From NCBI GenBank assembly GCA_036003045.1, contig DASYSS010000042.1, positions 62,001 to 126,000 of the forward strand: a stretch of DNA of 64,000 bases, read 5' to 3'. The DNA comes from Gemmatimonadaceae bacterium (GTDB taxonomy: Bacteria; Gemmatimonadota; Gemmatimonadetes; Gemmatimonadales; Gemmatimonadaceae). A program made the translations under genes and the position numbers. The number at the start of each line of letters is the position of its first letter. Positions within the stretch are counted from its first letter, which is position 1. The notes under the pieces were generated by a model. It searched no databases. It was not told the DNA's origin and saw only the letters and a program-made list of their open reading frames with translations. Shown piece by piece: positions 39,915 to 47,745 of this stretch.

Positions 39915-41063
39915 TCAGTATTTCGGCACGCTCGGATCTACCTCGTCGCTCCACCGCAGAATCCCACCGGTGAGATTCGTCGCGCGGAAACCGGCGGCGC
40001 AAAGCCGCTGCACGGCGTCGGCACTTCTGATTCCCGAGCGACAGTACACGACGATGTCGCGCTCGCCGTCGAGCGAGGACATCGCGGCGGGGAGCGAGCC
40101 GAGTGGAATGAGCTTGGCGTTCGGAAGCACGCCCAGTCGCCACTCATATGGCTCGCGCACGTCGAGCAACTCGAGGTCGTCGCCGCGCGCGAGCGCCTCC
40201 GCCAGTTCGCGGGGCGTCATCTCGGGAACGCGTGTCATGTTCGCGGTAGTCGTTGTCGGTGAAGTGCCGCAGTACTCGTCGTAGTCGATGAGCCGGGTGA
40301 TCTCGCGCGTGCCGCACGCCGGACACGTCGGATCGCGCCGCACGCGCACGGTGCGGAAGTTCATGCCGAGCGCGTCGACGAGCAGCAACCGACCGATCAG
40401 CGCGTCGCCCGCTCCGAGAATCAGCTTGAGCGCTTCGGTCGCTTGAATCGTTCCGACGAGACCCGGGAGCACGCCGAGCACTCCGCCCTCCGCGCAACTG
40501 GGCACGCTGCCCGGCGGCGGCGGCGACGGAAAGAGACAGCGGTAGCAGGGCCCGTCGGCCGTCGAGAAGACCGATGCCTGTCCGTCGAAGCGAAAGACGG
40601 AGCCGTACACGTTCGGTTTGCCGAGCAGCACGCAGGCGTCGTTGACCAGGTAGCGCGTCGCGAAGTTGTCGGTGCCGTCGACGATCACGTCATACCGGCC
40701 GAGGATCTCGAGCGCGTTGTCGGACGTGAGACGCGTCTCGTGCGTCTCGACGTTGACGTTCGGATTCAGATCGGTGATTCGCGCTCGCGCCGACTCGAGC
40801 TTGGGTCGGCCGACCGCCGCGGTGCCGTGCAGCACCTGGCGTTGGAGATTCGACACGTCGACGACGTCGAAGTCGACGATGCCGATCGTTCCGACGCCTG
40901 CCGCGGCTAGGTACAGCGCCGCCGGTGAGCCGAGACCACCCACCCCGACGAGCAGCACGCGCGCTGCCTTGATTCGTTGCTGACCGTCGAGGGCGACGTC
41001 GGGCAGAATCAGATGGCGGCTATAACGGAGCAACTCGTCGCGCGAGAGATCCAGTGGATCCAT
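39915..41063 (-). CDS. moeB: MoeB/ThiF-type adenylyltransferase with C-terminal rhodanese domain
   Basis: The 382-residue enzyme joins an E1-like adenylation domain to a rhodanese domain. The first has the nucleotide loop GVGGLGSP (about 40-47), the DFDVVDVSNLQRQ strand, the CYRCLFP and CPACG zinc pairs and a candidate catalytic Cys in SVPSCAEGG. The rhodanese part (from about 280) carries the active Cys341 in VVYCRSGIRS. These proteins activate the C-terminus of MoaD- or ThiS-like carriers and pass sulfur to them, for molybdopterin, thiamin or cysteine synthesis. No carrier gene is next to it, so the exact pathway is open. Confidence 0.92.
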   Translation of the reverse strand: MDPLDLSRDELLRYSRHLILPDVALDGQQRIKAARVLLVGVGGLGSPAALYLAAAGVGTIGIVDFDVVDVSNLQRQVLHGTAAVGRPKLESARARITDLNPNVNVETHETRLTSDNALEILGRYDVIVDGTDNFATRYLVNDACVLLGKPNVYGSVFRFDGQASVFSTADGPCYRCLFPSPPPPGSVPSCAEGGVLGVLPGLVGTIQATEALKLILGAGDALIGRLLLVDALGMNFRTVRVRRDPTCPACGTREITRLIDYDEYCGTSPTTTTANMTRVPEMTPRELAEALARGDDLELLDVREPYEWRLGVLPNAKLIPLGSLPAAMSSLDGERDIVVYCRSGIRSADAVQRLCAAGFRATNLTGGILRWSDEVDPSVPKY

Positions 41064-44816: not shown

Positions 44817-45419
44817 ATGATGCGCTTCAAGAGAAGCGGCGTTCTGCTGCCCATCGCCGCGTCGGCGTTTGGCGCGGCACTCGCCGGCGCGCAACAGCCG
44901 GCGGCTCCGCAGCCGGGCGGCGCGGCATCCGCGCCGAACGTCGGCCAGGCGGCTCCCGATTTCACGCTTCCGGGAGCGACCCGGTTCGGCGTGTTGAAGG
45001 AACCCGTTCGACTCGCGGATTACCGCGGACAGATCGTCGTGCTCGCGTTCTTTCCCAAGGCGCGGACAAAAGGCTGAACGATCCAAATGGAGGCGTACCG
45101 TGATCAGTACGCCACGCTCTTCAACGCCGGAAAGAAGGTCGTCGTGATCGGCATCAGCACCGACGCCGATACGACGCAAGCCAATTGGGCGCACGATTCG
45201 GGATTCCCGAATCTGTTCGCGAGCGACCCGGATCAGGCGGTCGCCAAGCTCTATGGCTCGGCGGACAACAAGCTCGATACGCGCAACGTTTTCGTCGTCG
45301 GTCCCGACGGCAAAATCGCCGCGCGGATGATGAAGTTCAACGTGCTGGCCGGTGACGCATACACCGAGCTTGGCACGGACGTCGCGAACGCCCTGAAATC
45401 GCTGGGGCCGCAGCACTAG
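44817..45419 (+). CDS. Exported AhpC/TSA peroxiredoxin, predicted selenoprotein (in-frame TGA at 45075)
   Basis: Read through one TGA, this frame gives a 200-residue peroxiredoxin. It has a signal peptide (residues 1-27, ending LAGAQQ), then APDFTLPG, VVLAFFPKARTKG, the TGA codon at position 87, TIQMEAYRDQY, VIGISTDADTTQANWA and NVFVVGPDGKI. The family's peroxidatic site is PxxxTxxC; here PKARTKG is followed exactly by TGA in place of Cys. The frame is otherwise intact, and codon use is the same on both sides. A SECIS-like hairpin follows. I therefore predict selenocysteine at residue 87 of a peroxide reductase in the periplasm. It has no Cys anywhere. A recent nonsense mutation is the main alternative. 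The start may be the ATG at 44817 or 44820. Confidence 0.82.
45075..45113 (+). promoter_or_regulatory. Putative bacterial SECIS element
   Basis: Fourteen nucleotides after the TGA at 45075-45077 a perfect 7-bp stem begins: GGCGTAC (45092-45098) with GTACGCC (45107-45113), around the 8-nt loop CGTGATCA. The loop starts 21 nt after the TGA and has G as its second base. Known bacterial SECIS elements have a short stem and a small loop with a G in the first two positions at about this distance, where SelB binds. All these conditions are met. Confidence 0.75.
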
Positions 45420-45420
45420 G

Positions 45421-46758
45421 GTGACGGCGATCGATGTGCCGGCGGCCGCCGGCCGAGCGCTCGCTTTAGAGTTGTATGATGCCGCGGTCGCCGCCGCCGC
45501 ACCGGGGCCGGCGGCGGCGCGTGCCGTCGACGCGCTGGCGCTGGAGCGCGGGTCGCGGCTGTGGATCTTCGCATTCGGCAAGGCGGCGCGTCCGATGGCG
45601 GCGGCCGCGGTGACGTCGACGCTTCGGTCGCTGCACTCGATCGTCGGCGGGTTGATCGTCGCTCCGGACGAGGCGCCGTCCCCGTATCCGACGATCGTTT
45701 CGATGCGGGGCGATCACCCGTTGCCCGGCCGCCACTCATTCGAAGCCGCGGCGAAGATCGGAGAGATCGCATCGGGCCGGCGTTCGTCGGACGTCGCGAT
45801 CGTGCTCCTCTCCGGCGGCGCGTCGAGCCTCATCGGCGCGCCGGTGCGCGCGATCAGCGAATCGGATTTCGTCGTGCTCCAGGAGCTCTTGCTGGGCTCC
45901 GGTCTCGACATCGCCGCGATGAACACGGTGCGAAAGCGATTTTCGCGTTGGGGTGCGGGCCGACTCGCCCTCGCGCTCGCGCCGGCCACGACCCACTGTC
46001 TCGCGATCTCCGACGTCGCCGGCGACGACTTGAGCGTGATCGGGAGCGGGCCGTGCATTCCCGACGGGTCGACCGTCGCCGACGTCGCCAATCTGCTGCA
46101 CAAGGCCAATCTCTTCGCGCGTCTCCCCGCGGCGTGCCGCGAGTATCTCACCGGCGTCACGCGCGGCACCGTTCCGGAGACTCCGGCCAAGGCGCACCCG
46201 GCATTCGCACACATCACCGGCCGCGTCATCATGAACAATCGGCTCGCGCTCCACGGCGTCGCCGCCAAAGCCGACGAGCTGCGACTGACGGCGTCTATCG
46301 CGCCTGAGCGACTCGACGGCGAAGCGGCGCGCGCCGGCGAAGCGATCGCGCGGTCGTTGATCGGCGCGGCGTCGCAGGGCGCGAACAACGCGTGCCTCGC
46401 GTGGGGCGGCGAGACGACCGTGACGCTGAGCGGCTCGAGCGGCGCGACGATCCTCGGCGGCCGATGCCAGGAGCTCGCTCTCGCCGCGGCGCGCGTGCTT
46501 CATCAAGCCGGCGCGGACGCGGCCGGCATCGCTCTCCTCGCTGCCGGCACTGACGGCCGGGACGGCGCCACCGACGCGGCCGGCGCCATCGTCGACCACA
46601 CGACGTGGAGCGCGGTCGCCGAGGGTGGCCGCGACCCCGCGAACGCGCTCGCGGCGCACGAGTCGTACAAGGCACTGCGCGCGGCGAGCGCGCTCATTCC
46701 GCGGCGCGACACGGGCACCAACGTGAACGACGTCGTCGTCGGCGTGATCGTCCGCTGA
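45421..46758 (+). CDS. Glycerate 2-kinase (MOFRL family)
   Basis: The 445-residue cytoplasmic kinase matches the glycerate kinase type II/MOFRL family. It has IFAFGKAARPMAAAA near residue 50, DHPLPGRHS, the LLSGGASSL loop near 130, NTVRKRFS, and the C-terminal MOFRL domain with TDGRDGATDAAGA and TNVNDVVVG. It phosphorylates glycerate to 2-phosphoglycerate with ATP, linking glyoxylate or serine breakdown to glycolysis. The GTG at 45421 is one base after the peroxiredoxin stop, so the two genes are probably co-transcribed. Confidence 0.92.
   Translation: MTAIDVPAAAGRALALELYDAAVAAAAPGPAAARAVDALALERGSRLWIFAFGKAARPMAAAAVTSTLRSLHSIVGGLIVAPDEAPSPYPTIVSMRGDHPLPGRHSFEAAAKIGEIASGRRSSDVAIVLLSGGASSLIGAPVRAISESDFVVLQELLLGSGLDIAAMNTVRKRFSRWGAGRLALALAPATTHCLAISDVAGDDLSVIGSGPCIPDGSTVADVANLLHKANLFARLPAACREYLTGVTRGTVPETPAKAHPAFAHITGRVIMNNRLALHGVAAKADELRLTASIAPERLDGEAARAGEAIARSLIGAASQGANNACLAWGGETTVTLSGSSGATILGGRCQELALAAARVLHQAGADAAGIALLAAGTDGRDGATDAAGAIVDHTTWSAVAEGGRDPANALAAHESYKALRAASALIPRRDTGTNVNDVVVGVIVR

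Positions 46759-46818: not shown

Positions 46819-47745
<927 letters not shown>

Follow-up and report, generated by a model that had tools for sequence, protein, structure and literature searches.

The question raised by this locus is whether a peroxiredoxin reading frame that contains a TGA codon encodes one full-length selenoprotein or a gene that has been broken. The locus lies in a 64,000-nt stretch of Gemmatimonadaceae DNA, hereafter the window. The initial annotation had described the frame as continuous from 44817 to 45419 except for one TGA at 45075, had placed that codon at the peroxidatic Cys position of a peroxiredoxin motif, and had read residue 87 as selenocysteine (Sec, U). A scan of the frame reproduced these coordinates exactly; two in-frame stops were found, the TGA at 45075-45077 and the terminal TAG at 45417. 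Translation through the TGA gave a product of 200 residues with U at position 87, in the context FFPKARTKG-U-TIQM. This is the peroxiredoxin active-site motif PxxxTxxC/U, of which P80, T84 and U87 are all present, and the TGA aligns exactly with the peroxidatic Cys column of the homologues. The features of the locus are as follows.

44817-45419, plus strand: predicted Sec-peroxiredoxin gene (200 aa, U87, stop TAG); read-through product matching Pfam AhpC-TSA at 101.3 bits (cut-off 26); same-genus homologues with one TGA are 70-79% identical.
44817-44897, plus strand: signal-peptide-like N terminus MMRFKRSGVLLPIAASAFGAALAGAQQ, with a basic start, a hydrophobic core and AGA-Q evident in the sequence; similar in homologues.
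45075-45077, plus strand: TGA, predicted to specify Sec87, the peroxidatic residue (PKARTKG-U-T).
45092-45113, plus strand: putative SECIS hairpin, GGCGTAC / loop CGTGATCA / GTACGCC, fitting the published bSECIS model (PMC13188914), conserved and with compensatory changes.
45421-46758, plus strand: DUF4147-MOFRL gene (glycerate 2-kinase type, by Pfam), a syntenic partner outside the Sec mechanism.

The TGA codon serves as the normal stop of the window genes at 45421-46758, 46819-47745 and 39915-41063, and an altered genetic code was ruled out because these neighbouring genes end in it. The same observation argues against read-through by some means other than Sec, such as a suppressor tRNA or the insertion of Trp or Cys, although the Cys homologues look functional, so that Cys insertion could conceivably yield an active enzyme. 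As the list of open reading frames includes a downstream frame starting at ATG 45087, the locus might also be taken to encode a short N-terminal protein and, separately, one of 110 aa. Such a split would, however, run through the active site of the AhpC-TSA domain; moreover, the Cys homologues are single continuous proteins, and the ATG is absent from some of the Sec forms (GTG in L128 and CAT in L134). We consider an arrangement of two proteins to be extremely improbable.

If the TGA is read as Sec, the genome is expected to carry the corresponding machinery, and the initial annotation had named the absence of selB or selC as a finding that would speak against its proposal. All four genes, selA, selB, selC and selD, were found in the source genome. 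The tRNA-Sec gene (selC) scored 70.1 bits against a cut-off of 47 and was called by ARAGORN as tRNA-SeC with the anticodon TCA; SelD (377 bits) is encoded directly upstream of it on the same contig. SelA scored 550 bits, and SelB is full-length (610 aa; 360 bits with its neighbour in frame). Secondary tRNA-Sec matches scoring no more than about 50 bits were set aside as look-alikes, for example of tRNA-Ser, because ARAGORN named two such matches in the source genome tRNA-Ser. The source assembly comprises 5.37 Mb in 106 contigs and is 98.5% complete with an estimated contamination of 4.3%, and the membership of individual contigs is thus uncertain.

A lone in-frame TGA that interrupts a peroxiredoxin gene intact in all other respects has the look of a new nonsense mutation, which would make the gene a pseudogene, or of a sequencing error. 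Its distribution among relatives bears directly on this reading. Homologues occur in 176 of 179 Gemmatimonadaceae genomes; the TGA form is present in at least 98 family genomes, and 35 have Cys forms only; these counts and those for SelB below cover the matches listed (E to about 1e-44). Detailed examination of 70 family homologues placed the TGA at the identical codon in every one, and TGA forms were also found in further families of the order and class. A TGC in sister genomes had been named at the outset as a second possible ground for rejecting Sec; in all five same-genus genomes a single TGA is found instead, and it occupies this codon. When named genomes were scanned for the pattern, the element was recovered from MAGs that carry the labels Gemmatimonadetes/Gemmatimonadota, Gemmatimonadaceae, Gemmatimonadales, Gemmatimonas and Longimicrobiales, as well as from a few labelled only 'uncultured bacterium'. 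Judged by these closest relatives, the window would belong to Gemmatimonadota. Judged from these comparisons, the TGA is not an isolate-specific mutation, being present at the same codon throughout these genomes of the family and in relatives from the order and class. The codons downstream of the TGA are, in addition, strongly constrained. The pseudogene reading appears already refuted by the conservation of the TGA across genera, and we regard it as having next to no chance of being correct.

The TGA form also co-occurs with SelB, which argues further against a pseudogene. SelB was detected in 84 of the 98 TGA genomes versus 3 of the 35 Cys-only genomes (Fisher p 1.7e-16, a value that overstates independence as the genomes are related). 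Among the 14 TGA genomes with no SelB match, many of which are incomplete assemblies, tRNA-Sec of at least 66 bits was found in 12 and SelA in 9; SelA was found in none of 11 Cys-only genomes lacking SelB. Four of the five same-genus genomes carry SelB independently; in the fifth, tRNA-Sec and SelA were found. One relative with the TGA gene, G124 (78% complete), yielded no SelB, SelA or strong tRNA-Sec, which probably reflects missing data. The presence of a full Sec machinery that tracks the TGA form across genomes is difficult to reconcile with read-through that inserts some other residue. On the tree, 9 changes between Sec and Cys are needed, and at least 6 of them are forced by supported branches. 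In genomes of genus g7 (L062, L063, L065, L066, L069, L070, L071, L072 and L075) a Cys copy and a Sec copy of this peroxiredoxin stand in tandem.

The initial annotation had also pointed to a hairpin 14 nt past the TGA with a perfect 7-bp stem and an 8-nt loop, and the structure at 45092-45113 was found exactly as described, with a predicted energy of -10.3 kcal/mol. Its loop, CGTGATCA, starts 21 nt past the TGA and has G at position 2. The bSECIS model specifies a loop of 3-9 nt, a stem of 4-16 bp, a G among the first two loop positions, a distance of 16-37 nt from the UGA and an energy of at most -7.5 kcal/mol (PMC13188914), and the window hairpin lies within all of these bounds. No credible SECIS match was obtained in Rfam. 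When the same peptide was recoded synonymously, 6.2% of the recodings produced a hairpin as stable, and comparison with shuffled sequences gave a z-score of -1.96; the hairpin was for these reasons dropped as stand-alone proof. Taken alone it is weak and not significant evidence; the comparative evidence is convincing.

A simple downstream hairpin within the bSECIS bounds was found in 69 of 70 Sec homologues, as against 1 of 40 Cys homologues. We compared codon choice at positions encoding the same amino acid, using the six codons that hold most of the stem and loop. At these codons the divergence is 0.019 among Sec forms and 0.403 among Cys forms, and elsewhere in the Sec genes it reaches 0.42 upstream and 0.395 downstream. 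The core GCGTAC-CGTGATCA-GTACGC has hardly changed among the Sec forms of the phylum, and where the stem does change it mostly changes pairwise. The outer pair is seen as G-C, C-G, T-A or A-T and is paired in 58 of 70 Sec forms, a number reached in none of 2000 shuffles (maximum 47); two inner pairs have swapped from G-C to A-T, in L115 through two substitutions that change amino acids. This pattern is the strongest evidence that the hairpin is used as RNA. Conservation of the hairpin in TGA forms only is again at odds with read-through without Sec, which we judge to be very unlikely. The prediction of selenocysteine at residue 87 is supported by the machinery genes, the conservation of the TGA and the constraint on the SECIS. 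Within the frozen loop, positions 45101-45106 hold a self-complementary hexamer, TGATCA, which is almost invariant among Sec forms.

The predicted structure of the read-through product agrees with its assignment as a peroxiredoxin. The AlphaFold2 model has a mean pLDDT of 85.7, its nearest PDB matches are Bcp-type peroxiredoxins (9a4d and 3drn), and U87 is located at the start of helix 85-96, where a peroxidatic residue would be expected. Among 36 Sec homologues R156 is invariant and T84 nearly so. The window protein contains no Cys, hence no resolving cysteine, and is not of the 2-Cys type; 68 of 89 Sec forms are likewise free of Cys, and in the others the listed Cys lies at least 66 residues before U. 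Oxidised selenium would therefore need a thiol reductant from outside the protein, and such a '1-Sec' cycle is most likely. AhpE likewise works with a single catalytic residue. It is the signal-peptide-like N terminus, common to the window protein and its homologues, that makes action outside the cytoplasm probable.

A gap of 1 nt separates the peroxiredoxin stop from the DUF4147-MOFRL gene, which lies directly downstream of the Sec-peroxiredoxin gene in 27 of 68 loci of relatives. Elsewhere in the same genome a Bcp/PrxQ peroxiredoxin (L004:1501-1857, minus strand, contig C28) was noticed as a second candidate for a selenoprotein. It has a TGA at the peroxidatic Cys (FFYPKDDTPG-U-TVEAC), and the Cys that follows five residues later (UTVEAC) is likely to be the resolving one. 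With U read as C, this candidate passes NCBIfam NF006960 (151 versus 140 bits).

Taking the evidence together, we hold it to be almost certain that the locus encodes one full-length selenoprotein, with Sec put in at the UGA by way of SelB and the hairpin; the product is most likely a 1-Sec peroxiredoxin and probably exported. During translation, SelB carrying Sec-tRNA-Sec would bind the hairpin at 45092-45113, and the UGA at 45075 would be decoded as selenocysteine. The product, a predicted thioredoxin-fold peroxiredoxin of the Bcp/PrxQ-AhpE type, would probably go to the envelope. There its Sec87 selenol, assisted by Thr84 and Arg156, may attack H2O2 or organic hydroperoxides; the oxidised selenium would then be reduced by the outside thiol.

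A 2026 review (PMC13188914) describes the proline of the PxxxTxxU motif as highly conserved. Here F, Y, I, V or S takes its place in 65 of 89 Sec forms versus 0 of 42 Cys forms; the window protein itself retains Pro. Sec forms with a replaced Pro were noted among L028-L056, L097-L136 and L235-L253, and Cys groups that sit amid Pro-less Sec forms keep the Pro (L057-L059, L061 and L068; also L254). In a test of whether loss of Pro goes with Sec along the tree, no pair ran in the opposite direction, but with 3 independent pairs on supported branches the outcome is not significant. The contrast is a lead and not a result. It is conceivable, if somewhat doubtful, that these proteins form a phylum-wide family of envelope 1-Sec peroxiredoxins in which selenium relaxes the need for an active-site Pro that the Cys enzymes require. 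The contrast in Pro, together with the predicted exported, single-chalcogen design, might surprise specialists.

Gemmatimonadota include many soil and freshwater organisms that are presumed to be aerobic. As aerobic bacteria rarely retain selenoproteins, according to the 2026 review (PMC13188914), a predicted Sec peroxidase conserved in much of this phylum is a useful case. Because standard annotation splits the gene, an antioxidant enzyme that is presumably exported goes unseen throughout a phylum widespread in the environment. A search of titles and abstracts, conducted mostly outside subscription papers, found no published report of a Gemmatimonadota Sec-peroxiredoxin family. The window gene adds to the known Sec-peroxiredoxins a member that seems not to have been reported and that is conserved in a large part of the phylum.

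Sec-peroxiredoxins of the TxxU kind (PF00578/COG1225) are known, for example the enzyme of Eubacterium acidaminophilum (PMC13188914, PMC9312934), and the window protein shares with them the AhpC/TSA domain, the TxxU motif and the replacement of the peroxidatic Cys by Sec. Compared with a part of the known set, it differs by its signal-peptide-like N terminus and its lack of Cys, and its relatives differ by their frequent replacement of the motif Pro; against NCBIfam peroxi_PrxU (NF040737) it scores 54.5 bits, far under the cut-off of 270. Bcp/PrxQ and AhpE peroxiredoxins (PDB 3drn and 1xvw) are among its best matches in sequence and fold, but the window protein has Sec in place of Cys and an N-terminal extension, and it is 24-30% identical to Bcp-type structures. 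The Cys homologues from Gemmatimonadota (for example L057-L061) share the same domain and in some genera stand in tandem with Sec copies, whereas their codon is TGC or TGT, they show no SECIS constraint and they always keep the motif Pro; a more distant Cys homologue, L002, is present in the source genome itself. The repeated switches between Sec and Cys and the contrast in Pro between these two forms of one enzyme provide a natural experiment on the effect of selenium at a peroxiredoxin active site.
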